Origin: Proales similis | Taxonomy: Eukaryota > Rotifera > Eurotatoria > Ploima > Proalidae | Assembly (NCBI GenBank): GCA_019059635.1 | Contig: JAGVRJ010000014.1 | Coordinates: 930,001 to 994,000, forward strand | Direction: 5' to 3' | Length of the DNA stretch: 64,000 nt | Shown: positions 10,149 to 51,122 of the stretch, in pieces | Layout: each line of letters begins with the position of its first letter | Numbering within the stretch: position 1 is the stretch's first letter | The notes under the pieces: model-generated | Told to the model about the DNA's origin: nothing | Databases searched by the model: none | Seen by the model: the letters and a program-made list of their open reading frames with translations, nothing else | Made by a program: the position numbers and the translations under genes

Positions 10149-11736
10149 ATGAGTCGAACTTTAAAAAAACTCGCCTTCCTCTCACTGACCTTTATGATTA
10201 CTTCAATATTTGTGTATTCAAATTATTTGCCTCTGCCAAGCCTTGCATCTTGGTTGCCAGAGCGGTTTTGGCCAAATAAGGTGGCAGACCTGACAGGCTT
10301 TGGCAAGCAATTAGTTTGGGACGAGCCTGCTTCAAATAAGGATTGGTGTATGCTCGATAGGGTTTACATGCGCACCAAGTCAATTCTCAATATGCAGTAC
10401 AACATAATCATACTGGGACTTTATTGGAAAAAGGGACCCGAAGAAAACTATGCAAGGCATAAGTTTTATGTTGAATTTGATTACAGATTGTTTGAACGGG
10501 TTCAGTCTGGCAACAAGCGTCTCCTCTTTCAGGAGCTTTCTTTTCAGCCGTATAGCTTTATTGAAAGAACATATGGCCTCGAGATTCCGTCAAACCTGAG
10601 CCTAAGTAAAGACATGGACCTTTCGTTGGAGATTTCGAGCATCAATTCTTCTCAGAGATGTCACATTGATATCGAGCCGTGGTTCAATAGCGTTCCTTAT
10701 GAGCAAAAGAGGGATGCCTTTGCTTGTTGCCTCAAGTTTACAAATTACGATGCGCCCGGGTCGATTGAGCAGCTGGACACATTGCTTGGCTTAATGCGGC
10801 GTTTGGGCTTCCAGAAGATATTCACCTTCGACTTTGACTACGAGGACAAGACGGTGAGGCAAAGATTGGACCAAGTGTTTGACAAATACGCCGACTTGCT
10901 ACAACTCAGCAAGATAAACTTCCTTCCCAATCCAGAGCAGACAGTCGACTCGCCCGCTCTATCTGCGTGCATTTCCAAAATACATCGACTTGCGGTATCA
11001 GACCGAAAATAAGTATACTGACTTTTTTACTGGCATTATAGCTGAAGGGGTGTTCATGAATGAATGCTACATTCAGCTTGCCGACCACTTCAAGTTCATC
11101 ACTTTGCAAGACTTTGACGATCTGATTCTGCCTAGAAGCCAATCGTTCAGCTCGACCGAATGTCCCAGAGAGCAGAGATTTATGCATGAAGGTATGCGGC
11201 AAAGCGAGCGAGGCTACGAGGGCCCAAAAAATATTAATAAAATTTACTCTTATCAGCACACGGTCTACATTCCAAACGAACATATATTCGGTCTCTGCTC
11301 GGCCTTTGACCAATCTGACCAAAAGTACCCTTTTAAATACGAATTGGCATTTGGCCTAAACAGTGAAAAGCTAACGATTGAAAGCAATTCTACAGAAGAC
11401 GTTGAGCAAATGGAACGGATATGCCTGCTCTTCAGAAAAAATGAAAAGCTTCTGCGCAGTCTGGATGGGGCATTTGACAGACTGGTATTTTTCGAAGTAT
11501 TTGGATTTACATCAATCAAATCAATAACCAACTCGTCATCTTGTCCCTTTATCTCAACTCATGGCTTTTTGGCTAGATATGACCGATTAGAAAGACGACA
11601 ACTGAGATTATCCAAAGGAAATTGGGCCCACTTTCGTTCCTCAATAAAATTTGAGTCTTTCAGGCTGGCCCGTAATCTGGTCGTCGATCTAAACTATTTC
11701 TACTGCATTCTTAACCAGCCGATTCAGATTGCTTAA
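10149..11736 (+). pseudogene. GT92-like glycosyltransferase, subfamily A, frameshifted copy
   Basis: The sequence is collinear with the intact 1,587-bp A genes but is 1,588 bp long. An extra C in the run at about 10953-10955 (cgcccgctct against cgccgctct in the other copies) shifts the frame after residue 268, ending at 11012. The rest of the protein continues from about 10990 in the next frame to the family stop at 11736. It encodes a type II topology: short cytosolic tail, membrane anchor (about residues 7-24), stem and lumenal domain. The putative DxD region (LQDFDDLILPR) lies beyond the break. A sequencing error is possible, since the rest is well preserved. AATAAA lies near 11775. It is convergent with SMN. 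Confidence 0.8.
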
Positions 11737-11891
11737 AGAACATACGCAAACAGGCCGGTTTATGTTTGTTTGTTGAATAAATTTCGCTGCAAAGACCATC
11801 TGCTTCCAGCTTAAATTCTTTGCTCTATAGTCTCTTAACATTTTCTTCACATTTCCTTAGATTTTCAAGGTCGGCGCTCACTCAGATTTGA

Positions 11892-12530: not shown

Positions 12531-12895
12531 TTCACTAATAAAATTGAATAGATTCACAAAGAATCGCCGCCACTCAAGCTCCAGTGCATGTTAGACGAGT
12601 GTTAACTCGACAAAATAAACTTTTGCTCGTGAGATTCGCGCATCTTTCTCGGCCGGCAGCAGCAGCAGCGAGTCGCTATAACAGCTTCAACAGTCAGGCA
12701 AACAATAATTGCGGTTGAAAAGACTCGCTCAAGACTCGTTTCGGGCCGCCCGTTACCGGACACACACATTAAACCAACGGTCCAAGACGCCTGGCCCCGT
12801 TTGCTTCATTCAATATTGTTCTTCTTTTATACCAAATCAATGCAATAATCGTCTCTTGTTTATATTTGGCGCTCAATTCAATTCGGACGAGAAAA
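12531..12895. promoter_or_regulatory. Probable bidirectional promoter SMN / FANCM
   Basis: Only 365 bp separate the divergent ATGs of SMN (12530, -) and FANCM (12896, +). An AGC repeat (cagcagcagcag) occurs near 12656-12670. No defined core element is recognised; the arrangement itself is the evidence. Confidence 0.5.
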
Positions 12896-15800
12896 ATGAA
12901 AAAATCAACGAACCAATCGACAACAGTTAAAAGCAGCCAGAGGTCCGAAGTGGCCCAAAAGACTCTGCTTCAATGCTGGACCTCTAAGAATGCGTCTCGA
13001 GCCAACAGCTTAGCCGATGATGCTGGAAAGAGCAAATTTGTCGGCCGGTCTGATCAACTCGATCATGACAATGATGATGAGCTGGACGACATTGAGCTGA
13101 TCGAAGCCGAAATGGCATTCCAGAGCGGCAACTACTCGCTTGGCACCACATGCAATCGGTCGGCTGCGAACGCCTCCTCAGCCGGCAATGAGGACGACTC
13201 GAGCAAAGTTGCTCTCGGACTAGGCGACGAAGACTTGAAGCTAACGCAGTACGACAGCACAGACGGCTTTGATCGAATAGAGGGCGCCACATGGATTTAT
13301 CCCAACAACATGCCTGTGCGCTCGTACCAGTACAATATTGTGGAGCAGTGTCTTCGCAAGAACACGATGGTCGTCCTGCCGACCGGCATGGGAAAGACTT
13401 TCATCGCCGCCGTGGTCATGTTCAACTACTATCGCTGGTACCCGGGCGGCAAAGTGCTGTTCATGGCGCCGACAAAACCGCTGGTCAATCAACAGGCGGA
13501 CGCTTGCTACAAGATAGTCGGCATAAGCAAAGAGCACATGTGCCAAATGACCGGGCAGATGGCGCCTGAGAAACGCAAAGGCCTCTGGAGAGACAAGCGA
13601 GTGTTCTTTCTGACGCCTCAAGTAATATCCAACGACATCCTGCGTGGCAATGTGGACGTAATGCAGATAAAATGCGTGGTGATCGACGAGGCGCACAAGG
13701 CGCTCGGCGACTATGCATTTTGCAAAGTGATCGAGGCCATACACGAGTTGAACAAGAACTTTCGAATAATCGCATTGACCGCCACGCCGGGCAGCGATGC
13801 CAAGGTGAGTTGACCGCTCTCGAACGTCACACCGATCAGACCCATCACCCTATCTGGTCTCAATATTCAAACAGACCGTACAGGGCATCATTGACAAGCT
13901 GCTCATCTCTCACATTGAGCTCAGATCGGACGAATCGATTGACATCCAACAGTACAATCACGGACGTGAGATCAGCAAGTTTGTGCTGCCGCTAAGCGAG
14001 TCGATGAAAAAAGTGCAGGCCGCGTTCGTGAACGTAAGCGGTTCGCTCGACTAAAATTCATCATAAAAATTAATCGTTCTGGCCACAACGGCACCAGATG
14101 ATGAGAACAGTGGTCAAGCGGCTCGAAATGAACCGGGTCCTGTCGGCCAAAGACCCGGCATCGTTGGCCAAAATGTTCGTACTGGAGCGGCGCGAGAGCT
14201 TCAGACGCAATCCGCCGTCAGGCGTCGATGTAAATTCAAATTGCTCAAATAAGAATAAGTTAGCGCCTAATTTTGCGTGACTTGAAGAGGAGAAAAGCGA
14301 GCCTGATTGAATGCGACTTTGCTCTGATAATCACTCTGCTGCATGCGCTCGAGCTGCTCTCTCAGTACGGAGTGAAATCGTTCTACGCCTTTTTGGCCAG
14401 CGTCGTTGAGAACAAGGACGGCTCAAAGTCCAACTCGCAGCAGAATCGTCTGAAAGCCGAGCTGGCCAACCACAAGGAGATGTCTGCCTACTATGCCGAG
14501 TTCGACAAGCTCTTCAACTCAAAGTAAGAATAGAAATTGAAACGATGCAGGCAGCTAGCGGCTTACCAAATGCCATGATGCGCCACTTTCAAAGAGACTT
14601 GAGGTCCGTGCCGCGCGACTACCGACATCCCAAACTGCTCAAGCTCGAAGAAGTGGTCCTCGAGCACTTTGCCAAGTTCGGGCCGAGTAAGTGCAGTCAC
14701 GATCCAAGTTTCGCTCAAGCCCAGTCGATATAATTTGCCAACAGACGAGACCAGGGTGATGATATTCTCCCAGTACCGAGAGAGTGTCTACGAAATAACC
14801 GAGCTGCTCGCGCAGCACGCTGAGCTCATAAAGCCGATGGAGTTCATCGGACAGTCGTCGAGCGGCAGCGGGCAGCAGACTGGACGCAAAACGGTCACCC
14901 AAAAAGAGCAGCTGGCGGTTGTGAAGAAATTCCGCGACGGCGGCTTCAACACGCTCATCTCGACCTGCGTGGGCGAAGAGGGTCTTGACATTGGCGAAGT
15001 TGATCTGATAATTTGCTTCGACTCGCAGAAGAGTCCGATCCGTCTCATCCAGCGAATGGGCCGCACAGGACGCAAGCGCGACGGCCGCATCATTGTCCTT
15101 CTTGCGCAGGGCAAAGAAGAGCAAGCCTATCAGACGAGCTTGAGCAAGAAGAAAAGCATCTACAAAGTAATTCAGAACGGACAAAAGCACTTCAAGTTCT
15201 ATGCGCACAATCCGCTAATGATCCCGCGCGACTTGCGGCCTCAATGCCAAAAGATGCCGATTCATGTGCCGACTGAGGAAGAGGCCGCCGCGCACAATCA
15301 GACAGCCAAGAAGGAGGCGAGAAAATGCAAGAAAGAGGAAAAGAGCCAGAAGCGAACGAGCACAAACAGAGGCAGAGCGGGCAAAAAGAGTCTGGCGCCC
15401 GACTCGCCGCTCGACGACGATTTGCCCGATCTCGATCTCGGCTTTGAGCGCAAGACCCGAGCGAATACGAGCTCAAACAGAACGCTACAGCCGCTTCCCG
15501 AGCCAGTCGAAATAAACGAAATGATCAAGGGTTTGCGGCCCAGACGAAGGAAGAACGTTTTCTTCTCAGACGAGGAGGACTTCCTATCTACGGACCAAGC
15601 CGGAGTAAACAGCAGTTCTAAGACGGCGCGTGTGCTCGAAAGCGAGCCAGAGGACACGGTCGAGCCGAGCTGGCATGTTGCCAAGCTGGAGAGTTTTTTT
15701 CAAAATAACGACGACCAAGGCGACCCGCTACGCGCCTCGTCGGACGAAGGCGAGCCGATGAGCCAGGCAGACTCCAACCTCGACTTGGTTCCGCTCAAAC

Positions 15801-18714
15801 GAGACGAGGATGAAAGCGACGCCTGCTCGATAGCTTCTCTCAACGGCCAACAACTGGCAGACATTTTTGCTGATTGTGAGCAAGCTGAGATTGCCGATCA
15901 GTCGATGACCTGCGTCGATCAAAAGGACCAAGAAATGAGAGAAGAGCATGAGAAAGAGGAGAATAGCAGACGCCCAAGGCTGGCTGACAATCTGACCATG
16001 CTCAAAAAGCGGCTTGAATGTCAAAACACGACTAGCACTCCGGCCAGGCAAGAAACAGTCGACTCGTGCAAGCCGATCGAATCGAACGAGCACTCGAGAA
16101 ACAATGACGCCGCATACAACAACACCAGTCTAATCGGAATGACTCAAGCGATGAATATTCTAAACGAGACGACGAACCGCTCGTTCGAAGCCAAGGCCAA
16201 TTTGGACGAGTGGTTCAACTCAAGCGACATTGAGCAGCCGGAGGCCATGATGAGCATTGATTCGACTCATGAACGGCTAGAGACGAGCAACAAGAGCCGG
16301 CTTGAATTGGAGAAAATGGAGCAAAGCAAAGAGTCCGACTCGAGTTCGGTGATCGCATTGACAAACAATCGAGCGCCTCAGGTCTTGTCAGTGTCTAACG
16401 AACGCGAGCAGGACTCAATTGAGCGAGATTACCAGGAGGCGCTCGGCTTCAACAAAACGGCCAGCTCAGATGAACGCGTGTCCGATGAGTCGCTACGGCT
16501 GATTCAGCGAGCGTCAAAGCGAAAAGGCGTGAACGCGTTCTTGCTGACCCAGGCCGACGACTTGGCCGATGAAGAGGGCGAGTGCGAAGACGAATACGAG
16601 AATGGCTACGATTTGGCCGACAGTTTTGTTGATCGGAACCACTACAGTCAAGAAGGTAAGCTGCTTTTGTTGCCCTTTTGTTTAGAGCGTTCATTTAAAA
16701 CGGACGACCGCGATAGAGTCAATGATTGCCTTTCATCGGCGCATGATGGCTCAGACCATCAATCCGCGTCCGTTGCTTAGGCGGCCAATGAATCAATATG
16801 ACGACGAAGAGATATTCTCGCAGATGCCCGAGCAGGACAGCGAGTACAATTTTGACAGCTTCGTCGTACCTGATGATCACGAGTCGGTATTGAGCCAGCC
16901 GAAAGAGAGGACGATGAAGAAGAAGAAGAAGAAAAAATCGCAGTCTGAGGACGAGCAGCCGAAAAAGGCCAAGAGTCGATTGAGGCGAGTGAAAGAGCTC
17001 AAGGCCGACTCGCCTTCCATTTTGACCATCGATTCGGACGAAGAAAATCGACCAGCGCCGACTGCAACGCTCGAGTCAAGCAAAGAAGAATCGCCAGTTG
17101 TGGCACCAGTTCTGAGCAAGAGAAAAACTCGTCTCTTGCTTGACAGTTACCACGAGCCAGAAAGAAGGGCCAAGAGCCCGAGCAATGATTTGAAAAAGCC
17201 CGCTAGCATGCCAGAACGAAAAGGGGACCACCAAGAGCCCGGACATCGCCTGGATGAATCCGACCAGTTGGAGCGAAAAGACAAGATCAAGAAGAATGCT
17301 GACGACGATGACGACGAAGATCTAAACGACGACGAACTCAATGCATTTTTGTGTAGATTCGATTCGGCTAGAGAAAGCCGCGATGTGGATCGAGCTGTAA
17401 ATGCAAGCACAAAAACTGAAATAAATCGTAATATTCCGGACGATGAAGAAGATGAGGATTTCAATCGATGGATTGTGGAGGACACCATGCTGCTTGAAAA
17501 GTCAATTCTTCAACCGTGCAAAAGAGACTTGCCAGAAGACAGACAAGTCAAGATCGAGACGCCTGGGCTTGATCGCTGTGCCAGTCTAGTCAGCTCGGCG
17601 TGCAGCTTCGCTTCTCCCTTAAATAGCCCGGCCAATTTGGCAAAGGAGGAGACGACTCATTTGGCGAAGATGAGAAATTCGAATTGGGTTCTTGTGGACG
17701 CCAGCACTTTAGCCGCCGCTGCTGTGGGTTTTTTCTTTTTTTTTGATCCAACACTCAGCTGCGATCGGATAAATGCTGTTGTTTCGCAAGCAGGAAACTA
17801 TCAAGCACATGAGGCGAGTGTGGATGCCCGAGCGAATAGTTATGCAGTCAAGTCTACAGTGTGATTTTGTGCTCAGTCAACGGCTGGCTGCACTGAGGTT
17901 TAAATTTTCGGGTAACCGCACAATGTCTACTTCAAATGAGGCTAGCTCATTGGGATCATAGATTTGAACGCGATGGCCAACCGACAATCAATCGTGGACA
18001 AATACGTCAAAGCCCGATCACTGTACGGCCAAGTGATTGTGTTCGTGTTGGACGACCGGGAAGCAAACAGGTTTGATATCAAGGAGCGTTCACGATCATC
18101 CATGATTAGTTTCAAAAATGAAGAGCCAAGAGCCGTCTGTTTGACTCGGCTTTGAGTCATCTCAGCAAGCTCTCGCTTGTCGTGTTCACTTCTAATTCAG
18201 GTGAGAAGCGTCTACCAGGGTCTCTGGTTGCAAGCGTGCCTCAAGACGCGCCATGTTGGTATCACAAGCCTCTACACACTCTATTCTTTCATTTCAGGCG
18301 CAGATCTAAGTCGTCAGCTAAATGCAATCAGCCAAGCAGAAGCCCGGTCTGGTTTCGCGATCCAAACCAGCCAAATGGAGGCAATCAACTCTCAAGCCAA
18401 AGTAAGCCTCTGCCCAGAAATGCTTTCTTTCCCTTTTTTTTTTAACTATCTACTCAATCGAAAATGAAAAAGGATTTCAAGTTCTACCTCACTCTTCCTG
18501 GAATATCTGTGCTTAACGCTGCTCAATATTGCTTAACAATGCAGCATTCGATCGGCTCGTTTTGTCAGAGGCAAGTATACGCTGTGATGAGCACTTGATT
18601 GACGTGAAAATTTTTAATGGCACAATCAAAAGCTCGTTAGAGCAGCTCAAGGAAAAAGGAAGACTGAACGATCGGAAGGCAAGGCGGCTTCTCAAATTCT
18701 TAACTGGGGCCTAG
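12896..18714 (+). CDS. FANCM: FANCM DNA translocase (Fanconi anaemia M / Hef family)
   Basis: DNA helicase-like translocase that remodels stalled forks and anchors the Fanconi core complex in the nucleus. Thirteen exons join in phase for about 1,675 aa: 12896-13804, 13875-14033, 14098-14229, 14288-14523, ~14595-14686, 14745-16655, 16717-17723, 17791-17911, 17962-18070, 18133-18200, 18298-18401, 18473-18570 and 18633-18714. Visible are an N-terminal KTLLQCW motif, Walker A PTGMGKTFIA, DEAHKALG, TATPGSDAK, the long insert domain, motif VI QRMGRTGRKR, the MM-like IFSQMPEQDSEY, a degenerate ERCC4 nuclease region (CDFVLSQRLAALRFKFSD, lacking ERKxxxD) and a terminal HhH segment. The last intron (18571-18632) starts AG|GCAAGT, so it is a GC-AG intron required by phase. 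The exon-5 acceptor is ambiguous. The nearest AATAAA lies in duplicated jagunal sequence downstream. Confidence 0.92.
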
Positions 18715-18744
18715 ATCGCCGCCCCATGTCGGCTCTCTTCGCTT

Positions 18745-19059: not shown

Positions 19060-20646
19060 ATGCGTCGAAATCATAAAAGACTTGCTTTCCTCTCACTGAT
19101 CTTGTTGTTTATTTCAATATTTGTGTAATCAAATTATTTGCCTCTACCAAGGGCTGCATTTTGGTTGCCAGAGCGGTTTTGGCCAAATAAGACGGCCGAC
19201 CTGACAGGCTTTGGCAAGCAATCAGTTTGGGACGAGCCTGCTTCAAATGAGGATTGGTGCATGCTCGATGAAGCTTACATTCGGACCAAGTCAATTCTCA
19301 ATATGCAATACAACATAATCATACTGGGACTTTATTGGTCAAAGGAATCCAAAGTAAACTATGAAAGGCATAAGTTTTATGTTGAATTTGATTACAGATT
19401 GTTTGAGCGGGATCAGTCCGGCAACAAGCGTCACCTGTTTCAAGTGCTTTCTTTTCAGCCGTATAACTTTATTGAGAGAACCTATGGCCTCGAGTTGCCG
19501 TCAAACCTGAGCCTCAGTGAAGACATGGACCTTTCGTTGGAGGTTTCGAGCATAAATTCTACTAAGAGATGTCACATTGATATCGAGCCGTGGTCCAATA
19601 GCGTTCCTTATGAGCAAAAGAGGGACGCCTTTGCTTGTTGTCTCAAGTTTACAAATTACGATGCGCCCGGGGCGATTGAGCAGCTGGACACATTTCTAGG
19701 CTTAATGCGGCGTCTGGGCTTCCAGAAGATATTCACCTTCGACTTTGACTACGAGGACAAGACGGTGAGGCAAAGATTGGACCGAGTGTTTGACAAATAC
19801 GCCGACTTGCTACAACTCAGCAAGATAAACTTCCTTCCCAACCCAGAGCAGACAGTCGACTCGCCGCTCTATCTGCGTGCATTTCCAAAATACATCGACT
19901 TGCGGTATCAGACCGGAAATAAGTATACTGACTTTTTAACTGGCATGATGAGTAATGGGGTGTTCATTAATGAATGCTACATTCAGCTTGCCGACCACTT
20001 CAAGTTCATCACTTTGCAAGACTTTGACGAACTGATTCTGCCTAGGAGCCAATCGTTCAGCTCGACTGAATGTCCCAGAGAGCAGAGATTTATGCTTGAA
20101 GGTATCCGGCAAAGCGAGCTCGCTTACAAAGGCAGAGACAATCTTGAGAAAGTTAACTTTTATCAGCATACAGTCTACATTCCCAACGAGCATATATTCG
20201 ATCTCTGCTCGGCCTTTGACCAATCTGACCAAAAGTACTCTCTTAAATACGAATTGGTATTTGGCCTTTATAAAGATAAGCTAACGATTAAAAGCAATTC
20301 TACAGAAGACGTTGAGCAAATCGAACGGATATGCCTGCTCTTCAGAAATAATGAAAAGCTTCTGCGCAGTCTGGATGGACCATTTTACAGACTGGTATTT
20401 TCTGAAGCTTTTCACCCGCCGCCAATGAAGTCAATAACCAACTCGTCATCTTGTTCATTCATAACAACACATGGCGGTATAAATACATATAAATCAATTA
20501 AAGAAAAGCTAGGTCGCTTCTCCGAAGGAAATTGGGCTCACTTTCGTTCCTCAATAAAATTCGAGTCTTTCAGTCTGGCCCGAGATCTGGTCGTCGACCT
20601 TATCTATTTCAACTGCATTCTGAATTAGCCCATTCAATTGGCTTAA
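19060..20646 (+). pseudogene. GT92-like glycosyltransferase, subfamily A, nonsense-bearing copy
   Basis: Exactly 1,587 bp, the length of the intact A genes, with no frameshift. Codon 23 (19126-19128) is TAA where other copies have TAT, within the membrane anchor. A second nonsense codon near 20629 (TAG for CAG) removes the last residues. From codon 24 the frame is open for about 500 codons with conserved landmarks (EDWCMLD, CCLKFTNYDAPGAIEQLD, LQDFDELILPR, GNWAHFRSS). Without the start and anchor it could not give a normal Golgi enzyme. It is probably a recent pseudogene; use of an internal start is conceivable but unsupported. Confidence 0.8.
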
Positions 20647-20710
20647 AGAGGATACCCAAAGAGTCCGAAGCCCAAGGAAAACTCCAATTTATTTAAGGAA
20701 TCAACAAAGT

Positions 20711-21046
20711 CTAGCCTAGAACACAGCTAAAATAGTTAAGGTCGACATGCAATAATCGAGCTAGCAGTTTTAAATATTCTTTTTGAGAAGCTCGAAAATG
20801 CGCCCAGTTTCCGTAAGGCAGTTCTAGGCTTTTGAAACTCGAGGCGGCTGGATAGGGGTTAGCGTAGTGAGTCTCAATAAACGCGGTCACCGAAGTGTTC
20901 ACAATGCTTTTAGGGTTTTGCTTTGTGGAAAGAAAGAAGACGAGTCGTTCGAAGTTCATGGTCGAACTTGCCAGGAGTTGTCCGTTCCGCTCGAACAAAG
21001 AACATATCCACTCAATCTTAATTGAGTCTTCCTTCGATCTTTGCCA
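20711..21046 (-). pseudogene. GT92-B 3' fragment fused to copied FANCM sequence
   Basis: Encodes about the last 110 residues of a subfamily B protein, from SKEDS..IEWICSLFERN through GNWAHFRASQKEY to CVLG and the stop. Near 21047 homology ends and sequence matching FANCM exon 5 (14667 onward, opposite sense) begins. There is no start codon or N-terminal domain. It is shorter than the B fragments at 24122, 27056 and 29978. Confidence 0.8.
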
Positions 21047-21047
21047 C

Positions 21048-22284
21048 CTTTGCCAAGTTCGAGCCGAGTAAGTGTAGTCACGATCCAAGTTTCGCTCTAG
21101 CCCTGTCGATATAATTTGCCAACAGACGAGACCAGGGTGATGATATTCTCCCAGTACCGAGAGAGTGTCTAGCTCATTGTCCTTCTTGCGCATGGCAAAG
21201 AAGATCAAGCCTGTCAGACGAGCTTTAGCAAGAAAAAAAGCATTTACAAAATAATTGCTCGAAAGCGAGCCAGAGGACACGGTCGAGCCGAGCTGGCATG
21301 TTGCCAAGCTGGAGAGTTTTTTTCAAAATAACGACGACCAAGGCGACCCGCTACGCGCCTCGTCGGACGAAGGCGAGCCGATGAGCCAGGCAGACTCCAA
21401 CCTCGACTTGGTTCCGCTCAAACGAGACGAGGATGAAAGCGACGCCTGCTCGATAGCTTCTCTCAACGGCCAACAACTGGCAGACATTTTTGCTGATTGT
21501 GAGCAAGCTGAGATTGCCGATCAGTCGATGACCTGCGTCGATCAAAAGGACCAAGAAATGAGAGAAGAGCATGAGAAAGAGGAGAATAGCAGACGCCCAA
21601 GGCTGGCTGACAATCTGACCATGCTCAAAAAGCGGCTTGAATGTCAAAACACGACTAGCACTCCGGCCAGGCAAGAAACAGTCGACTCGTGCAAGCCGAT
21701 CGAATCGAACGAGCACTCGAGAAACAATGACGCCGCATACAACAACACCAGTCTAATCGGAATGACTCAAGCGATGAATATGATGAAGAGGGCGAGTGCG
21801 AAGACGAATACGAGAATGGCTACGATTTGGCCGACAGTTTTGTTGATCGGAACCACTACAGTCAAGAAGGTAAGCTGCTTTTGTTGCCCTTTTGTTTAGA
21901 GCGTTCATTTAAAACGGACGACCGCGATAGAGTCAATGATTGCCTTTCATCGGCGCATGATGGCTCAGACCATCAATCCGCGTCCGTTGCTTAGGCGGCC
22001 AATGAATCAATATGACGACGAAGAGATATTCTCGCAGATGCCCGAGCAGGACAGCGAGTACAATTTTGACAGCTTCGTCGTACCTGATGATCACGAGTCG
22101 GTCTTGAGCCAGCCAAAGGAGAGGATGATGAAGAAGAAGAAAAAATCGCAGTCTGAGGACGAACAGTCGAAAAAGGCCGAGAGTCGATTGAGGCGAGTGA
22201 AAGAGCTCAAGGCCGACTCGCTTTCCATTTTGACCATCGATTCGGACGAAGAAAATTGACCAGCGCCGACTGCAACGCTCGAGT
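21048..22284 (+). pseudogene. Internally deleted duplicate of FANCM exons 5-7
   Basis: The block matches four FANCM pieces in order: about 14667-14790, 15093-15176, 15633-16155 and 16573-17090 including the exon 6/7 intron. The three gaps are deletions. The third piece appears identical over more than 360 bp, shown by identical shadow translations at 15728-16093 and 21351-21716. The flanking pieces carry many substitutions and small indels. It has no helicase or nuclease domain and ends in GAAAATTGA, so no function is likely. The retained intron shows DNA-level copying rather than retroposition. Confidence 0.88.
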
Positions 22285-22488
22285 AAACTTGTCATCGATA
22301 TTGGTTTTGCATAAGGGTGGGAAAAATGGCACAAAAGAAAAACAAATAAGATAAGTAGACAGATTGACGCGTAATGCAGTGATGCGAATCGACCCAGTTC
22401 ACTAGTCGAACAGATCGCATTTTAGATGAATTAGACCAAGTGCGCCAGCTAAAAGAGTTTGCTTCACCCGTGTGCGAAATAAGAAGCA
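22285..22488 (+). repeat. GT92-A 5' flank copy
   Basis: After the FANCM fragment ends at GCTCGAG, the sequence resumes as the A-gene 5' flank, matching about 18874 onward (aacttgtcatc..ggttttgcat). It then runs into the conserved leader ending GCGAAATAAGAAGCA before the ATG. It lacks the jagunal-derived AATAAA part present at 18745. Confidence 0.7.
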
Positions 22489-24075
22489 ATGAGTCGAAAT
22501 CATAAAAGACTTGCTTTCCTCTTACTTACCTTTGTGTTTATTTCAATATTTGTCTATTCAAATTATTTGCCTCTACCAAGGGCTGCATTTTGGTTGCCAG
22601 ATGGGTTTTGGCCAAATAAGGTGGCAGACCTGACAGGCTTTGGCAAGCAATTAGTTTGGGACGAGCCTGCTTCAAATGAGGATTGGTGCATGCTCGATGG
22701 GGTTTACATCCGCACCAAGTCAATTCTCAATATGCAATACAACTTAATCATTCTTGGGCCTTATTGGCCAAAGGCACCGAATATTCTACTTTCAAGGCGT
22801 AAGTTTTATGTTGAATTTGATTACAGATTGTTTGAACGGGATCAGCCCGGCAACAAGCGTCTCCTCTTTCAGGAGCTATCTTTTCAGCCGTACAGCTTTA
22901 ATGAAAAAACCTATGGCCTCGAGTTGCCGTCAAACCTGAGCCTTAGTAAAGACATGGACCTTTCGTTGGAGATTTCGAGCATCAATTCTACTCAGAGATG
23001 TCACATTGATATCGAGCCGTGGTTCAATAGCGTTCCTTATGAGCAAAAGAGGGATGCCTTTGCTTGTTGTCTCAAGTTTACAAATTACGATGCGCCCGGA
23101 GCAGTTGAGCAGTTGGACACATTTCTAGGCTTAATGCGGCGTCTGGGCTTCCAGAAGATATTCACCTTCGACTTTGACTACGAGGACAAGACGGTGAGGC
23201 AAAGATTGGACCAAGTGTTTGACAAATACGCCGACTTGCTACAACTCAGCAAGATAAACTTCCTTCCCAATCCAGGGCAGACAGTCGACTCGCCGCTCTA
23301 TCAGCGTGCATTTCCAAAATACATCGACTTGCGGTATCAGACCGAAAATAAGTTAAATGACTTTTTAACTGGCATTATGAGTGAGGGGATTTTAAATAAT
23401 GAATGCTACATTCAGCTTGCCGACCACTTCAAGTTCATCACTTTGCAAGACTTTGACGAACTGATTCTACCTAGAAGCCAATCGTTCAGCTCGACTGAAT
23501 GTCCCAGAGAGCAGAAATTTATGCTTGAAGGTGTCCGGCAAAGCGAGCTCGCTTTCAAAGGCCTAGACAATATTGATAAAGTTTACTTTTATCAGCATAC
23601 AGTCTACATTCCCAACGAGCATATATTCGGTCTCTGCTCGGCCTTTGAGCAATCTGACCAAAAGTACTCTCTTAAATACGAATTGGCATTTGGCCTTTAC
23701 AGTGAAAAGCTGACGATTGAAAGCAATTCTGCAGAAGACGCTGAGCAAATGGAACGGATATGTCTGCTCTTCAGAAAAAATGAAAAGCTTCTTCGCAGTC
23801 TGGATGGGCCATTTGACAGACTGGTATTTTTCGAAGCTTTTCACACGCCGCCAATGAAGTCAATAACCAACTCGTCATCTTGTTCCTTCATAACAACACA
23901 TGGCGTTAGAAATAGACATCAACCAATTAAAGAAGAGCTACGTCGCTTCTCCGAAGGAAATTGGGCTCACTTTCGTTCCTCAATAAAATTCGAGTCTTTC
24001 AGTCTGGCCCGAGATCTGGTCGTCGACCTTATCTATTTCAACTGCATTCTGAATCAGCCCATTCAATTGGCTTAA
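22489..24075 (+). CDS. GT92-like (DUF23) glycosyltransferase, subfamily A, copy 3
   Basis: Predicted Golgi type II membrane glycosyltransferase of 528 aa, single exon. Short basic tail (MSRNHKR), anchor at about 7-24, stem, then the lumenal domain. The conserved core has the CCLKFTNYDAPGA segment near residue 200, RRLGFQKIFTFDFDYED, then NECYIQLADHFKFITLQDFDELILPR with a candidate metal-binding DxD, and GNWAHFRSS near the end, matching the GT92 layout (C. elegans GALT-1 is a member that galactosylates core fucose). Substrate here is unknown. Ten or more conserved cysteines suggest disulphides. Variable blocks: LLSRRK at about 97, NKLNDFLTGIMSEGILNN at about 288, and the PPMKSIT..RRFSEG type near the C-terminus. 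Tail-to-tail with a B fragment 46 bp away. Confidence 0.78.
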   Translation: MSRNHKRLAFLLLTFVFISIFVYSNYLPLPRAAFWLPDGFWPNKVADLTGFGKQLVWDEPASNEDWCMLDGVYIRTKSILNMQYNLIILGPYWPKAPNILLSRRKFYVEFDYRLFERDQPGNKRLLFQELSFQPYSFNEKTYGLELPSNLSLSKDMDLSLEISSINSTQRCHIDIEPWFNSVPYEQKRDAFACCLKFTNYDAPGAVEQLDTFLGLMRRLGFQKIFTFDFDYEDKTVRQRLDQVFDKYADLLQLSKINFLPNPGQTVDSPLYQRAFPKYIDLRYQTENKLNDFLTGIMSEGILNNECYIQLADHFKFITLQDFDELILPRSQSFSSTECPREQKFMLEGVRQSELAFKGLDNIDKVYFYQHTVYIPNEHIFGLCSAFEQSDQKYSLKYELAFGLYSEKLTIESNSAEDAEQMERICLLFRKNEKLLRSLDGPFDRLVFFEAFHTPPMKSITNSSSCSFITTHGVRNRHQPIKEELRRFSEGNWAHFRSSIKFESFSLARDLVVDLIYFNCILNQPIQLA

Positions 24076-24121
24076 AGAGGATACCCAAAGAGTCCGAAGC
24101 CCAAGGAAAACTCCAATTTAT

Positions 24122-24682
24122 TTAAGGAATCAACAAAGTATTTCCTAGAACACAGCTAAAATAGTTAAGGTCGACATGCAATAATTGAGCTAGCAGTTTT
24201 AAATATTCTTTTTGAGAAGCTCGAAAATGCGCCCAGTTTCCGTAAGGCAGTTCTAGTCTTTTGAAACTGGAGGCGGCTGGATAGGGGTTAGCGTAGTGAG
24301 TCTCAATAAACGCGGTCACCGAAGTGTTCACAATGCTTTTAGGGTTTTGCTTTGTGGAAAGAAAGAAGACGAGTCGTTCGAAGTTCATGGTCGAACTTGC
24401 CAGGAGTTGTCCGTTCCGCTCGAACAAAGAACATATCCACTCAATCTTAATTGAGTCTTCCTTCGATCTACTTTGGATAATTACTTGTTGGTGCAAGTTT
24501 CCATAAGTGAACTGAAACTCCCAAGGGTATCTGACCGAAGACTGCTCGAACAGTTGGCACATTTCGAATATATTCTGATTGGGTATATAGTCTATGCGCG
24601 TATACGAGTAAAAGCCCAATTTTTGATTTCCAGGATATGTTTCTTTCAGCACCTGGTCGTTGTGCTCAAGTCCCTCGATGAT
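24122..24682 (-). pseudogene. GT92-B 3' fragment in array unit 1
   Basis: About 185 codons of the B-subfamily C-terminus, intact to the stop (NTLLIP), matching the end of the gene at 32899-34464. Clear homology stops at the ctcgatgat motif, after which stop codons appear upstream; no ATG or catalytic DxD segment is present. TAAATAAA at the stop retains a poly(A) signal. Because the downstream A gene stops 46 bp away on the other strand, A transcripts probably run into its antisense. Confidence 0.82.
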
Positions 24683-25422: not shown

Positions 25423-27009
25423 ATGAGTCGAAATCATAAAAGACTTGCTTTCCTCTTACTTACCTTTGTGTTTATTTCAATATTTGTCTATTCAAATTAT
25501 TTGCCTCTACCAAGGGCTGCATTTTGGTTGCCAGATGGGTTTTGGCCAAATAAGGTGGCAGACCTGACAGGCTTTGGCAAGCAATCAGTTTGGGACGAGC
25601 CTGCTTCAAATGAGGATTGGTGCATGCTCGATGGGGTTTACATCCGCACCAAGTCAATTCTCAATATGCAATACATCTTAATCATTTTTGGGCCTTATTG
25701 GCCAAAGGCACCCAAAGTAAACTATGAAAGGCATAAGTTTTATGTTAAATTTGATTACAGATTGTTTGAACGGGATCAGCCCGGCAACAAGCGGCTCCTC
25801 TTTCAGCAGCTTTCTTTTCAGCCCTATAACTTTATTGAGAGAACCTATGGCCTCGAGTTGCCGTCAAACCTGAGCCTTAGTAAAGACATGGACCTTTCGT
25901 TGGAGATTTCGAGCATCAATTCTTCTCAGAGATGTCACATTGATATCGAGCCGTGGTCCAATAGCGTTCCTTATGAGCAAAAGAGGGACGCCTTTGCTTG
26001 TTGTCTCAAGTTTACAAATTACGATGCGCCCGGGGCGATTGAGCAGCTGGACACATTTCTAGGCTTAATGCGGCGTCTTGGATTCCAGAAGATATTCACC
26101 TTCGACTTTGACTACGAGGACAAGACGGTTAGGCAAAGATTGGACCAAGTGTTTGACAAATACGCCGACTTGCTACAACTCAGCAAGATAAACTTCCTTC
26201 CCAATCCAGAGCAGACAGTCGACTCGCCGCTCTATCTGCGTGCATTTCCAAAATACATCGAATGGCGGTATGAATCCAAAACCGACAATCTTGACTTATT
26301 TTTGCGCATGATAAGCGATGGAATTTTCAATCATGAATGCTACATTCAGCTTGCAGACCACTTCAAGTTCATCACTTTGCAAGACTTTGACGAACTGATT
26401 CTACCTAGGAGCCAATCGTTCAGCTCGACTAAATGTCCCAGAGAGCAGAGATTTATGCTTGAAGGTGTCCGGCAAAGCGAGCTCGCTTTCAAAGGCCTAG
26501 ACAATATTGATAAAGTTTTCTTTTATCAGCATACAGTCTACATTCCCAACGAGCATATATTCGATCTCTGCTCGGCCTTTGAGCAATCTGACCAAAAGTA
26601 CTCTCTTAAATACGAAATGGCATTTGGCCTAAACAGTAAAAAGCTAACGATTGAAAGCAATTCTGCAAAAGACGTTGAGCAAATGGAACGGATATGTCTG
26701 CTCTTCAGAAAAAATGAAAAGCTTCTTCGCAGTCTGGATGGGCCATTTGACAGACAGGTATTTTTTGACGTATTTGGATATACATCATTCAAATCAATAA
26801 CCAACTCGTCATCTTGTTCTTTTATCTCAACACATGGTTTTTTGACTAGATATGAATATATAAAAGGGCCAAATCTGAGATTATCCGTAGGAAATTGGGC
26901 CCACTTTCGTTCCTCAATTAAATTCGACGCTTATAGTCTGGCCAGAAATCTTGCCCTCGATCTAAACTATTTCAACTGCATTCTGAATCAGCCCATTCAA
27001 TTGGCTTAA
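25423..27009 (+). CDS. GT92-like glycosyltransferase, subfamily A, copy 4
   Basis: Single-exon 528-aa type II membrane protein with the same anchor, stem and lumenal architecture as the copy at 22489. The putative DxD segment LQDFDELILPR is intact. It differs in the variable blocks: VNYERHK near 97, YIEWRYESKTDNLDLFLRM near 284, the FGYTSFKSIT..LRLSVG C-terminal type, and FDAYSLARNLALDL at the end. Compared with its neighbour at 28345 only two amino acids differ (S/R at position 2 and I/N near 80). N-glycosylation sequons such as NLS and NSS occur in the lumenal part. Confidence 0.78.
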   Translation: MSRNHKRLAFLLLTFVFISIFVYSNYLPLPRAAFWLPDGFWPNKVADLTGFGKQSVWDEPASNEDWCMLDGVYIRTKSILNMQYILIIFGPYWPKAPKVNYERHKFYVKFDYRLFERDQPGNKRLLFQQLSFQPYNFIERTYGLELPSNLSLSKDMDLSLEISSINSSQRCHIDIEPWSNSVPYEQKRDAFACCLKFTNYDAPGAIEQLDTFLGLMRRLGFQKIFTFDFDYEDKTVRQRLDQVFDKYADLLQLSKINFLPNPEQTVDSPLYLRAFPKYIEWRYESKTDNLDLFLRMISDGIFNHECYIQLADHFKFITLQDFDELILPRSQSFSSTKCPREQRFMLEGVRQSELAFKGLDNIDKVFFYQHTVYIPNEHIFDLCSAFEQSDQKYSLKYEMAFGLNSKKLTIESNSAKDVEQMERICLLFRKNEKLLRSLDGPFDRQVFFDVFGYTSFKSITNSSSCSFISTHGFLTRYEYIKGPNLRLSVGNWAHFRSSIKFDAYSLARNLALDLNYFNCILNQPIQLA

Positions 27010-27055
27010 AGAGGATACCCAAAGAGTCCGAAGCCCAAGGAAAACTCCAATTTAT

Positions 27056-27616
27056 TTAAGGAATCAACAAAGTATTTCCTAGAACACAGCTAAAATAGTT
27101 AAGGTCGACATGCAATAATTGAGCTAGCAGTTTTAAATATTCTTTTTGAGAAGCTCGAAAATGCGCCCAGTTTCCGTAAGGCAGTTCTAGTCTTTTGAAA
27201 CTGGAGGCGGCTGGATAGGGGTTAGCGTAGTGAGTCTCAATAAACGCGGTCACCGAAGTGTTCACAATGCTTTTAGGGTTTTGCTTTGTGGAAAGAAAGA
27301 AGACGAGTCGTTCGAAGTTCATGGTCGAACTTGCCAGGAGTTGTCCGTTCCGCTCGAACAAAGAACATATCCACTCAATCTTATCTGAGTCTTCTTTCGA
27401 TCTACTTCGGATAATTACTTGTTCATAGAAGTTTCCATAAGTGAACTGAAACTCCCAAGGGTATCTGACCGAAGACTGCTCGAACAGTTGGCACATTTCG
27501 AAAATAGTCTGATTGGGTATATAGTCTGTGCGCGTATACGAGTAAATTCCCAATTTTTGATTTCCAGGATATGTTTCTTTCAGCACCTGGTCGTTGTGCT
27601 CAAGTTCCTCGATGAT
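27056..27616 (-). pseudogene. GT92-B 3' fragment in array unit 2
   Basis: Same truncated B C-terminus as at 24122, here closer to the intact gene in the NFYEQVIIRSRSKEDSDK segment. It ends upstream at the same ctcgatgat point near 27616. The C-terminal frame is open to its stop but there is no ATG, anchor or DxD region. Confidence 0.82.
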
Positions 27617-28344: not shown

Positions 28345-29931
28345 ATGCGTCGAAATCATAAAAGACTTGCTTTCCTCTTACTTACCTTTGTGTTTATTTC
28401 AATATTTGTCTATTCAAATTATTTGCCTCTACCAAGGGCTGCATTTTGGTTGCCAGATGGGTTTTGGCCAAATAAGGTGGCAGACCTGACAGGCTTTGGC
28501 AAGCAATCAGTTTGGGACGAGCCTGCTTCAAATGAGGATTGGTGCATGCTCGATGGGGTTTACATCCGCACCAAGTCAATTCTCAATATGCAATACAACT
28601 TAATCATTTTTGGGCCTTATTGGCCAAAGGCACCCAAAGTAAACTATGAAAGGCATAAGTTTTATGTTAAATTTGATTACAGATTGTTTGAACGGGATCA
28701 GCCCGGCAACAAGCGGCTCCTCTTTCAGCAGCTTTCTTTTCAGCCCTATAACTTTATTGAGAGAACCTATGGCCTCGAGTTGCCGTCAAACCTGAGCCTT
28801 AGTAAAGACATGGACCTTTCGTTGGAGATTTCGAGCATCAATTCTTCTCAGAGATGTCACATTGATATCGAGCCGTGGTCCAATAGCGTTCCTTATGAGC
28901 AAAAGAGGGACGCCTTTGCTTGTTGTCTCAAGTTTACAAATTACGATGCGCCCGGGGCGATTGAGCAGCTGGACACATTTCTAGGCTTAATGCGGCGTCT
29001 TGGATTCCAGAAGATATTCACCTTCGACTTTGACTACGAGGACAAGACGGTTAGGCAAAGATTGGACCAAGTGTTTGACAAATACGCCGACTTGCTACAA
29101 CTCAGCAAGATAAACTTCCTTCCCAATCCAGAGCAGACAGTCGACTCGCCGCTCTATCTGCGTGCATTTCCAAAATACATCGAATGGCGGTATGAATCCA
29201 AAACCGACAATCTTGACTTATTTTTGCGCATGATAAGCGATGGAATTTTCAATCATGAATGCTACATTCAGCTTGCAGACCACTTCAAGTTCATCACTTT
29301 GCAAGACTTTGACGAACTGATTCTACCTAGGAGCCAATCGTTCAGCTCGACTAAATGTCCCAGAGAGCAGAGATTTATGCTTGAAGGTGTCCGGCAAAGC
29401 GAGCTCGCTTTCAAAGGCCTAGACAATATTGATAAAGTTTTCTTTTATCAGCATACAGTCTACATTCCCAACGAGCATATATTCGATCTCTGCTCGGCCT
29501 TTGAGCAATCTGACCAAAAGTACTCTCTTAAATACGAAATGGCATTTGGCCTAAACAGTAAAAAGCTAACGATTGAAAGCAATTCTGCAAAAGACGTTGA
29601 GCAAATGGAACGGATATGTCTGCTCTTCAGAAAAAATGAAAAGCTTCTTCGCAGTCTGGATGGGCCATTTGACAGACAGGTATTTTTTGACGTATTTGGA
29701 TATACATCATTCAAATCAATAACCAACTCGTCATCTTGTTCTTTTATCTCAACACATGGTTTTTTGACTAGATATGAATATATAAAAGGGCCAAATCTGA
29801 GATTATCCGTAGGAAATTGGGCCCACTTTCGTTCCTCAATTAAATTCGACGCTTATAGTCTGGCCAGAAATCTTGCCCTCGATCTAAACTATTTCAACTG
29901 CATTCTGAATCAGCCCATTCAATTGGCTTAA
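28345..29931 (+). CDS. GT92-like glycosyltransferase, subfamily A, copy 5
   Basis: Single-exon 528-aa protein nearly identical to the copy at 25423, starting MRRNHKR instead of MSRNHKR and with Asn rather than Ile near residue 80. The anchor, the cysteine framework, the LQDFDELILPR motif and GNWAHFRSS are intact. The near-identity of coding and spacer DNA shows a very recent duplication or conversion, so separate functions are unlikely. An assembly artefact must also be considered. Confidence 0.78.
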   Translation: MRRNHKRLAFLLLTFVFISIFVYSNYLPLPRAAFWLPDGFWPNKVADLTGFGKQSVWDEPASNEDWCMLDGVYIRTKSILNMQYNLIIFGPYWPKAPKVNYERHKFYVKFDYRLFERDQPGNKRLLFQQLSFQPYNFIERTYGLELPSNLSLSKDMDLSLEISSINSSQRCHIDIEPWSNSVPYEQKRDAFACCLKFTNYDAPGAIEQLDTFLGLMRRLGFQKIFTFDFDYEDKTVRQRLDQVFDKYADLLQLSKINFLPNPEQTVDSPLYLRAFPKYIEWRYESKTDNLDLFLRMISDGIFNHECYIQLADHFKFITLQDFDELILPRSQSFSSTKCPREQRFMLEGVRQSELAFKGLDNIDKVFFYQHTVYIPNEHIFDLCSAFEQSDQKYSLKYEMAFGLNSKKLTIESNSAKDVEQMERICLLFRKNEKLLRSLDGPFDRQVFFDVFGYTSFKSITNSSSCSFISTHGFLTRYEYIKGPNLRLSVGNWAHFRSSIKFDAYSLARNLALDLNYFNCILNQPIQLA

Positions 29932-29977
29932 AGAGGATACCCAAAGAGTCCGAAGCCCAAGGAAAACTCCAATTTAT

Positions 29978-30538
29978 TTAAGGAATCAACAAAGTATTTC
30001 CTAGAACACAGCTAAAATAGTTAAGGTCGACATGCAATAATTGAGCTAGCAGTTTTAAATATTCTTTTTGAGAAGCTCGAAAATGCGCCCAGTTTCCGTA
30101 AGGCAGTTCTAGTCTTTTGAAACTGGAGGCGGCTGGATAGGGGTTAGCGTAGTGAGTCTCAATAAACGCGGTCACCGAAGTGTTCACAATGCTTTTAGGG
30201 TTTTGCTTTGTGGAAAGAAAGAAGACGAGTCGTTCGAAGTTCATGGTCGAACTTGCCAGGAGTTGTCCGTTCCGCTCGAACAAAGAACATATCCACTCAA
30301 TCTTATCTGAGTCTTCTTTCGATCTACTTCGGATAATTACTTGTTCATAGAAGTTTCCATAAGTGAACTGAAACTCCCAAGGGTATCTGACCGAAGACTG
30401 CTCGAACAGTTGGCACATTTCGAAAATAGTCTGATTGGGTATATAGTCTGTGCGCGTATACGAGTAAATTCCCAATTTTTGATTTCCAGGATATGTTTCT
30501 TTCAGCACCTGGTCGTTGTGCTCAAGTTCCTCGATGAT
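29978..30538 (-). pseudogene. GT92-B 3' fragment in array unit 3
   Basis: Translated sequence identical to the fragment at 27056. Same upstream break, no start codon, stop overlapping AATAAA. Confidence 0.82.
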
Positions 30539-31266
30539 ACGTGAAAGGAAAGTGCGACATTCGAGCCTTTACTAAGGCTTTCTCATTTGATTGTATTAAG
30601 TCGATAAAAGGTTTAATAGGATAAGCGCTAAACCCTAATTGCAAGGTTTTCATGCATGTACGACAGTCTTTCAAGTACAATATAAAATTTTCGTATGCAG
30701 TTAAGTTCGAGTTGATTTGGCTGTCGTTAGCAATACAACAGTTGAGGCGATCTTTTAGACAAATACCCCTATGGATGGTTGGAAGAGCTTAAATATTTCA
30801 AACAGAGGTCTAAATGAGTCTTTGTATTATATTAAGTCGTATCGTAAGCCAATCCGAGTCTTCTTAACGTTTGCGGACCAGACACGCCAACGTTGATTCT
30901 TTGTAGGAATAAATCATTCTCAATGACAACCTTATTGAGTTCGGCACGTGGTTCTAGGCGCCAATGCATTGGACCAAGTTTTGAGACCCTGCAAAAAAAA
31001 AATTTTCTTCTAGACTCTCTATTGTCTATATATTGGCCCCTTTGGTTAATGAGCCGAACCAGCCATCCTTGATTGTTTTTCATTAAAATAGGGAAATCTG
31101 GGACAATGCGTGATCAAGCGCTCTCCTATGAGTTGGGTGATAGACACGAAATGCAGTGATGCGAATCTAGCCAGTTGATTTATCCAACAGATCGCATTTT
31201 TAGATGAAAAAGACCAAGTGCGCCAGCTAAAAGAGTTTGCTTCACCCGTGTGCGAAATAAGCAGCA
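30539..31266. repeat. Array spacer, unit 3
   Basis: Copy of 27617-28344 with almost no differences. No gene seen. It supplies the 5' flank and leader of the A gene at 31267. Confidence 0.65.
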
Positions 31267-32853
31267 ATGCGTCGAAATCATAAAAGACTTGCCTTCCTCT
31301 CACTGACCTTTGTGTTTATTTCAATATTTGTGTATGCGAAATATCTGCTTCTGCCAATGCCTGCGCCCGGGTTGCCAGAATCACTTTGGCCAAATGAGAT
31401 GGCCGACCTAAAAGACTATAACAAGCCATCAGTTTGGGACGAGCCTGCTTCAAATGAGGATTGGTGCATGCTCGATGGGGTTTACATCCGCACCAAGTCA
31501 ATTCTCAATATGCAATACAACTTAATCATTTTTGGGCCTTATTGGCCAAAGGCACCGAATATTAAATTTTCAAGGCGTAAGTTTTATGTTGAATTTGATT
31601 ACAGATTGTTTGAACGGGATCAGTCCGGCAACAAGCGTCTCCTCTTTCAGGAGCTTTCTTTTCAGCCCTATAACTTTATTGAGAGAACCTATGGCCTCGA
31701 GTTGCCGTCAAACCTGAGCCTTAGTAAAGACATGGACCTTTCGTTGGAGATTTCGAGCATCAATTCTTCTCAGAGATGTCACATTGATATCGAGCCGTGG
31801 TCCAATAGCGTTCCTTATGAGCAAAAGAGGGACGCCTTTGCTTGTTGTCTCAAGTTTACAAATTACGATGCGCCCGGGGCGATTGAGCAGCTGGACACAT
31901 TGCTCGGCTTAATGCGGCGTTTGGGCTTCAAGAAGATATTCACCTTCGACTTTGACTACGAGGACAAGACGGTTAGGCAAAGATTGGACCAAGTGTTTGA
32001 CAAATACGCCGACTTGCTACAACTCAGCAAGATAAACTTCCTTCCCAATCCAGAGCAGACAGTCGACTCGCCGCTCTATCTGCGTGCATTTCCAAAATAC
32101 ATCGACTTGCGGTATCAGACCGAAAATAAGTTGATTGACTCTTTTACTGGCATTATAGCTGATGGGGTGTTCATGAATGAATGTTACATTCGTCTGGCCG
32201 ACCACTTCAAGTTCATCACTTTGCAAGACTTTGACGAACTGATTCTGCCTAGGAGCCAATCGTTCAGCTCGACTGAATGTCCCGGCAAGCAGAGATTTAT
32301 GCTTGAAGGTGTCCGGCAAAGCGAGCTCGCTTTCAAAGGCCTAGACAATATTGATAAAGCTTACTTTTATCAGCATACAGTCTACATTCCCAACGAGCAT
32401 ATATTCGATCTCTGCTCGGCCTTTGACCAATCTGACCAAAAGTACCCTTTTAAATACGAAATGGCATTTGGCCTTTACAGTGAAAAGCTAACGATTGAAA
32501 GCAATTCTGCAGAAGACGTTCAGAAAATGGAACGAATATGTCTGCTCTTCAGAAAAAATGAAAAGCTTCTTCGCAGTCTGGATGGGCCATTTGACAGACT
32601 GGTATTTTTCGAAGCATTTGAAACGCCGCCAATGAAGTCAATAACTAACTCGTCAACTTGTTCCTTCATATCATCCCATGGCTATAGAAATAGACATAAA
32701 TCAATTAAAGAAAAGCTACGTCGCTTCTCCGAAGGAAACTGGGCCCACTTTCGTTCCTCAATTAAATTCGACGCTTATAGTCTGGCCAGAAATCTTGCCC
32801 TCGATCTAAACTATTTCAACTGCATTCTGAATCAGCCCATTCAATTGGCTTAA
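31267..32853 (+). CDS. GT92-like glycosyltransferase, subfamily A, copy 6 (mosaic)
   Basis: Single-exon 528-aa type II membrane protein. Its stem is distinctive (AKYLLLPMPAPGLPESLWPN against SNYLPLPRAAFWLPDGFWPN in the others). The next block (NIKFSRRK) resembles the copy at 22489. The NKLIDSFTGIIADGVFMN region resembles the copy at 10149, and TLLGL matches that copy too. The PPMKSIT..RRFSEG block resembles 22489, and the last 25 residues match 25423 and 28345. The DxD segment is intact. It is the clearest recombinant of the array. Tail-to-tail with the complete B gene, 45 bp between stops. Confidence 0.78.
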   Translation: MRRNHKRLAFLSLTFVFISIFVYAKYLLLPMPAPGLPESLWPNEMADLKDYNKPSVWDEPASNEDWCMLDGVYIRTKSILNMQYNLIIFGPYWPKAPNIKFSRRKFYVEFDYRLFERDQSGNKRLLFQELSFQPYNFIERTYGLELPSNLSLSKDMDLSLEISSINSSQRCHIDIEPWSNSVPYEQKRDAFACCLKFTNYDAPGAIEQLDTLLGLMRRLGFKKIFTFDFDYEDKTVRQRLDQVFDKYADLLQLSKINFLPNPEQTVDSPLYLRAFPKYIDLRYQTENKLIDSFTGIIADGVFMNECYIRLADHFKFITLQDFDELILPRSQSFSSTECPGKQRFMLEGVRQSELAFKGLDNIDKAYFYQHTVYIPNEHIFDLCSAFDQSDQKYPFKYEMAFGLYSEKLTIESNSAEDVQKMERICLLFRKNEKLLRSLDGPFDRLVFFEAFETPPMKSITNSSTCSFISSHGYRNRHKSIKEKLRRFSEGNWAHFRSSIKFDAYSLARNLALDLNYFNCILNQPIQLA

Positions 32854-51070: not shown

Positions 51071-51122
51071 TAATTCTGTTTTGGTTTATTTAGTGGTCGC
51101 TGCTGGTGCCTCCCTTCTGAAA

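Follow-up and report, generated by a model that had tools for sequence, protein, structure and literature searches.

We analysed a window of 64,000 nucleotides (nt) from the rotifer Proales similis (GenBank assembly GCA_019059635.1, contig JAGVRJ010000014.1, positions 930,001 to 994,000 of the forward strand) that contains an array of six gene copies, A1 to A6, of glycosyltransferase family 92 (GT92; Pfam accession PF01697). The block-by-block conflict among these copies is genuine, and they are mosaics. Silent-site divergence contrasts between their blocks and their backbone, and a homogenised core recurs in three other GT92 clusters of the genome (B, C and D). It is very probable that non-allelic gene conversion homogenises the backbone of these genes, mostly leaving old blocks untouched and now and again transferring one.

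Six GT92 copies in the A array

An earlier reading of the DNA letters (the original prediction) had named six copies between positions 10149 and 32853. All six are present at those coordinates:

A1, 10149..11736, + strand: GT92 copy, broken by a frameshift; both halves otherwise open
A2, 19060..20646, + strand: GT92 copy, broken by stops at codons 23 and 523
A3, 22489..24075, + strand: GT92 gene, intact, 528 aa; PF01697 29.6 bits (cut-off 23)
A4, 25423..27009, + strand: GT92 gene, intact, 528 aa
A5, 28345..29931, + strand: intact; differs from A4 at 2 nt across the gene alignment
A6, 31267..32853, + strand: intact; different blocks in common with A3, A1 and A4/A5; own stem type

An additional C within a C run (alignment position 805) shifts the frame of A1. 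In A2, codon 23 is TAA where the other five copies have TAT. A second stop replaces the Q of the others at codon 523, six residues short of the usual end; a genome search with A3 likewise counts one TAA and one TAG in A2. Because A1 and A2 are broken and A4 and A5 are only 2 nt apart, the array as assembled keeps four genes intact, and these encode three clearly distinct proteins. The combinatorial diversity proposed originally is thus true as a pattern and thin as a repertoire.

The alignment of the six genes has 1591 columns, 322 variable sites and 154 parsimony-informative sites. A1 was excluded from all codon work (silent-site divergence, omega and silent-run tests) owing to its frameshift. 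A5, with its 2 nt of difference from A4, was excluded from the approximately unbiased (AU), codon-model and silent-run tests and from two of the three copy sets used for the pairwise homoplasy index (PHI).

Mosaic blocks and recombination among the A copies

Variation among the copies is concentrated in blocks whose types are shared in different combinations:

Stem block (residues 24-56) in A6, 31336..31434, + strand: differs from every other copy at 27-29 of 99 nt
Block 95-105 in A3, 22771..22803, + strand: type common to A6
Block 281-306 in A3, 23329..23406, + strand: different allele in A4/A5; putative position of GT-A hypervariable region 1 (HV1) by motif order
Block 448-490 in A3, 23830..23958, + strand: type common to A2 and A6; in A1 closest to that of A4/A5
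C-terminal block 497-525 in A3, 23977..24063, + strand: common to A2, and to A1 over residues 500-512; A4, A5 and A6 carry the other type

A6 combines three of these types, as had been claimed. It shares the 95-102 block with A3 (4 of 58 nt differ at nt 254-311, versus 9-19 to the others), the 284-306 block with A1 (5 of 80 at nt 836-915, versus 12-30) and its C-terminus with A4/A5 (1 of 120 at nt 1471-1590, versus 15-20). Over this last segment A2 likewise differs from A3, with which it shares the C-terminal block, at 1 of 120 nt. Variation in the last block comes down mainly to two alleles near residues 500-515. The assignment of the A2 95-102 block to the A4 type holds: over nt 254-311, A2 is nearer A4/A5 (9-10 differences) than A3 (20); A1 is nearer still (7).

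Divergence between A3 and A4 is clustered, with 28 of 80 nt differing at nt 836-915 and 46 of 130 at nt 1341-1470. Elsewhere the two are near-identical (0 of 69 at nt 1-69, 1 of 99 at nt 70-168 and 0 of 85 at nt 169-253). They show no difference in the aligned columns of the 3' flank from about +1600 to +1945.

Recombination tests agree with this pattern. The PHI test gave p = 0.0005, the floor of 2,000 permutations, for each of three sets of A copies, and 33 of 60 triplet tests of the 3SEQ type pass Bonferroni correction. We also ran AU tests on all 15 trees of five copies over seven segments. No tree survives nt 254-311, 1341-1470 and 1471-1590 jointly, so a single tree for all blocks fails. 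Survivors were tree 2 only at nt 254-311, trees 7-9 only at nt 1341-1470 and tree 13 only at nt 1471-1590, where trees 1 and 4 were narrowly rejected (p 0.04); the other four segments each retain 8-11 of the 15 trees. The segment limits were chosen post hoc, and the PHI permutation, which is independent of them, is the cleaner test.

Silent sites and core homogenisation across GT92 clusters

Silent sites separate the A backbone from the A blocks. Silent-site divergence (pS) over residues 151-275 was 0.04-0.09 (six pairs). For the same number of pairs it was 0.03-0.41 over residues 279-306 and 0.07-0.58 over residues 448-490, with maxima where the copies carry different block types. Because silent sites in the blocks are diverged too, fast amino-acid change alone does not account for the A blocks.

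The B, C and D clusters share the homogenised core. For 13 of 13 pairs from these clusters, the longest silent-identity run, of 18-83 codons, is located between about residues 132 and 281 (p 0.00005-0.01). Runs in 101 between-cluster pairs had a median of 7 codons and a maximum of 14. Within clusters, pS over residues 151-275 was 0.19-0.28 in the five B pairs computed, with C at 0.18 and D2/D3 at 0.12. Between clusters it was 0.60-0.85, near saturation, in all ten pairs computed. The PHI test gave p = 0.002 in B and p = 0.002 in D. Silent-identity tracts flanked by silently diverged sequence are present within B, C and D, and in A they are seen through the pS contrast.

Some tracts have abrupt edges. 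In 50-bp windows, C1 and C2 are mostly 24-60% identical (one window 74%) to about nt 467 and then 98-100% identical for 300 bp. Identity then falls to 60-74% for about 100 bp, rises to 94-100% for 350 bp, falls to 52-78% for about 150 bp and returns to 98-100% up to the stop codon, after which it is 32-57%. A tract is also shared by two B genes that lie in opposite orientation:

B2 tract, 36280..36614, - strand: 335 bp matching B3 41956-42290 on the opposite strand at 89.6% identity

Outside this tract, 50-bp windows of the B2/B3 gene pair are mostly 42-68% identical. The tract favours conversion, since crossing-over cannot make it between inverted genes unless their orientation changed later.

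Recurrence of block positions

We tested whether the variable blocks are local islands of divergence with the five originally predicted blocks fixed beforehand, scoring each by the fraction of windows equally extreme. Within A, the blocks at 95-102 (0.004) and 284-306 (0.002) are islands, the stem (0.041) and 455-490 (0.077) are weaker, and the last 25 residues are not an island (0.73). The stem is an island in the other clusters too, with fractions of 0.000 in B, 0.059 in C and 0.000 in D. The 284-306 block is an island in C (0.009) and not in B (0.25) or D (0.22), where the neighbouring stretch is diverged too. Block 95-102 is weak outside A (B 0.17, C 0.08, D 0.15). Block 455-490 is not seen in B (0.17), C (0.96) or D (0.61), and C has its own block at about residues 424-460. 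The last 25 residues form an island only in D (0.015; B 0.52, C 0.20).

A model of conversion and its alternatives

The repeated gene conversion or unequal exchange of the original prediction is strongly supported by the PHI, triplet, AU and silent-run tests and by the steps in identity. Within the A array itself, we infer conversion rather than crossing-over, because internal segments of A3 and A4 differ between matching ends. In the model that we favour, non-allelic conversion among neighbours would keep most of each A gene alike; in the B, C and D clusters it is the front half of the catalytic domain that is most alike. Conversion would skip A segments that had already diverged (the A6 stem and residues of about 95-105, 281-306, 448-490 and 500-515), perhaps by failing across strongly mismatched DNA. 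Occasional transfer of a diverged segment between copies would then produce the mosaics, and the blocks would be old alleles on a young backbone.

Several observations weigh against this model or limit it. The homogenised core recurs well across clusters and the block positions only partly. In the D cluster, the three pairs that include D1 are not low overall (pS 0.41-0.49 over residues 151-275). The silent-run test is weak in A (p 0.009-0.27, six pairs), and within clusters some runs are as short as 18-20 codons, little above the between-cluster maximum. Among the between-cluster pairs, 20 of 101 reach p<0.01 with short runs (the five shown have 12-13 codons at residues 220-239), and within residues 221-240 pS between clusters falls to 0.48; constraint on codons, or ancient exchange between clusters, thus adds a little there. 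Whole-gene silent-divergence profiles of the four clusters show no significant correlation (six comparisons, rotation p 0.10-0.46). Third-position GC is raised in residues 176-275 in 16 of 17 GT92 genes (p<0.05; the exception is E1). This rise is ambiguous, and no clean mark of conversion, because the single-copy gene F1 shows it too.

Unequal crossing-over alone is a most improbable source of the mosaics. The direct tandem units, spaced 2922-2934 bp apart, and the 2 nt between A4 and A5 do suggest that copy number changed in this way. Yet A3 and A4, with 1 difference over nt 1-253 and none in the 3' flank, are mismatched at 28 of 80 nt and at 46 of 130 nt in the blocks between, and the B2/B3 tract is common to inverted genes. 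The near-identity of A4 and A5 could also be read, together with the extra C in the A1 C run, as a sign of an assembly chimera, in which haplotypes or copies were misjoined in the repeat. The same alternation appears in C1/C2 and D2/D3, where the diverged parts are too unlike for an assembler to confuse, and we hold misassembly to be highly improbable as the cause.

Two further accounts turn on selection. Surface or acceptor loops might have changed fast after recent duplication, with convergence producing the tree conflict. In codon models the nonsynonymous to synonymous rate ratio (omega) was 1.70 at residues 279-306, 1.21 in the A stem and 1.05 at 85-105, versus 0.23 in the A core, but none of these is significantly above 1 (p = 0.31, 0.67 and 0.93). 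No block in A, B or D reached an omega significantly above 1 in these tests, which have low power with three or four sequences and whose values recombination inside a block would bias. Two A blocks fell below 1 (448-490, 0.45, p = 0.025; C-terminus, 0.34, p = 0.08), the A non-block sequence gave 0.48, and all A blocks together gave 0.75 (p = 0.13 versus 1). Single blocks in B and D had omega values of 0.09-0.71, and the B blocks together (0.26) lie under the B core (0.43). With silent sites in the blocks strongly diverged as well, such diversifying selection is very unlikely; the blocks look old rather than fast-evolving and appear to differ mainly by escaping homogenisation. It is unlikely that conversion makes useful combinations, selection retaining diverged blocks that set acceptor choice while exchange recombines them. 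By motif order, block 281-306 immediately precedes the DFD motif, in the place of GT-A HV1; it falls between a strand (251-255) and a helix (303-313) in a low-confidence model, and is an island in both A and C; omega is also higher in the A blocks together than in the A core. Against this stand the lack of an island at 281-306 in B and D, the lack of recurrence of 455-490 in C or D, and an array in which two of six copies are broken and two almost identical. A design shared by the GT92 clusters is unlikely: the donor-binding half (about residues 181-260) would be kept uniform in each cluster by conversion, and acceptor-side segments, chiefly the HV1-like 281-306 and the stem, would be old cassettes reassorted among copies. 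If it were true, a small animal would renew acceptor specificity without loss of catalysis.

The duplicated unit and neighbouring GT92 genes

From A3 to A6 the A genes are spaced 2934, 2922 and 2922 bp apart. Behind each of A2-A5 lies a B-type 3' end on the opposite strand, and behind A6 the full B1:

After A2, 20708..21040, - strand: B-type 3' remnant with one in-frame TAG
After A3, 24122..24652, - strand: truncated B-type 3' end
After A4, 27056..27586, - strand: truncated B-type 3' end
After A5, 29978..30508, - strand: truncated B-type 3' end

Because of this trailing sequence, the duplicated unit comprises an A gene together with a portion of the convergent B1-type neighbour. Tandem duplication of this unit of about 2.92 kb would account for growth of the array. 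Spacing is wider at the 5' side, 8911 bp from A1 to A2 and 3429 bp from A2 to A3. The wider A2-A3 interval holds pieces of a DEAD-box helicase region (14667-17079). Three pieces of that region adjoin closely at 21048-22287 (96.8%, 100% over 526 bp, and 96.9% identical), and the intervening parts are gone.

In the window, each intact GT92 gene is one open frame, as are several long neighbours. The B genes are:

B1, 32899..34464, - strand: intact GT92, 521 aa, convergent to A6; PF01697 25.1 bits
B2, 35505..37106, - strand: intact GT92, open reading frame (ORF) of 533 aa from GTG; PF01697 32.5 bits
B3, 41485..43053, + strand: GT92 homologue, 44% to A3; without a Pfam match at E 0.01
B4, 49144..50709, + strand: intact GT92, 521 aa; PF01697 36.2 bits

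A 271-bp stretch upstream of B4 (48541-48811) recurs downstream at 50808-51071 (96.7% identity).

The genome comprises 32.7 Mb in 15 contigs. A search of it with A3 returned 25 rows: the six A copies (seven rows), the B type with four complete genes and four 3' remnants, D1-D4, C1/C2, E1, F1 and G1/G2. The D cluster lies on the same contig as the window (contig positions 1072874-1080071), C1 and C2 are paired on contig C4, E1 is on contig C12, F1 is on contig C7, and G1 and G2 are weak matches that were excluded from the codon alignment. D3 (30.1 bits) and D4 (30.6 bits) also pass the PF01697 cut-off of 23 bits; F1 (22.6), G1 (19.8) and E1 (16.0) score under it, and C1 and G2 have no PF01697 match at E up to 0.1. 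We called B3 and C1 as GT92 members through their similarity to A3 (44% and 30%). A six-frame genome search with the PF01697 profile matched at a single place, within A2 (25.5 bits). Protein searches (E up to 0.001; one up to 10) found no outside homologues, and the blocks therefore could not be polarised.

About 4 kb from the D cluster, ORFs with repeated chitin-binding CBM_14 domains lie at contig positions 1066542-1068883. Profile searches of the genome gave 72 matches to CBM_14 and 45 to zf-C4 (nuclear receptor), and the window also contains Jagunal and SMN genes. We found no pantoate ligase gene in the genome. Chitin_bind_4 had no match in the genome; the same search matched in none of the control genomes, so this proves little.

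Possible function and comparison with known systems

D321 and D323 are invariant in all eight aligned window proteins, and D323 in 14 of 14 proteins. They may form a DxD-like metal site. An AlphaFold2 model of the eight window proteins had a predicted local distance difference test score (pLDDT) of 43.3, falling under 50 across residues 252-374, and a predicted template modelling score of 0.29. A sequence search of the PDB returned no credible relative. In GT-A enzymes, HV1 sits between beta-3 and alpha-C, and hypervariable regions aid acceptor recognition in some families (PMC7185993). Block 281-306 is comparable in preceding the DxD-like motif, and differs in that the fold here is only a low-confidence model; the main text of that paper does not use the term GT92 (PMC7185993). 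Placed by motif order only, the block would correspond to HV1, and it may have a role in acceptor choice.

The four clusters, in one genome and with some tract edges placed to about 50 bp, are an unusually legible record of gene conversion shaping an enzyme family. They make it testable whether substrate choice is set by the segments that conversion leaves alone. Because the variable blocks here look older than the remaining sequence, they also warn against taking block mosaics for fast adaptive diversification. The literature searched, with most subscription journals outside its coverage, contained no report of conversion mosaics in GT92.

GT92 (DUF23) is a multigene PF01697 family in Caenorhabditis elegans as well, where GALT-1 is a tested galactosyltransferase, and SRF-2, of similar length at 515 aa, and BAH-1 affect surface or biofilm and pathogen attachment phenotypes (PMC10151413). 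The accessible portion of that account reports no block mosaics, and activity and phenotypes are known there whereas the rotifer genes are known from sequence (PMC10151413). Given the effect of C. elegans GT92 on pathogen attachment, a connection with surface glycans would be interesting (PMC10151413). The vertebrate Ugt1, Gcnt2 and Ugt2 loci are likewise tandem glycosyltransferase clusters, and four hypervariable regions of UGT lie in the acceptor pocket (PMC1885805). Those clusters are reported to evolve by birth and death, with conversion not predominant and positively selected UGT sites, whereas in the GT92 clusters here conversion predominates and omega is not significantly above 1 in any block tested in A, B or D (PMC1885805). 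The process itself is of a known kind. A likeness is found in the Plasmodium falciparum genes DBLMSP and DBLMSP2, where deeply diverged types are common to paralogues via non-allelic gene conversion (PMC10919680). Those are two surface antigen genes followed in populations, whereas the present case is an enzyme family in one assembly (PMC10919680).

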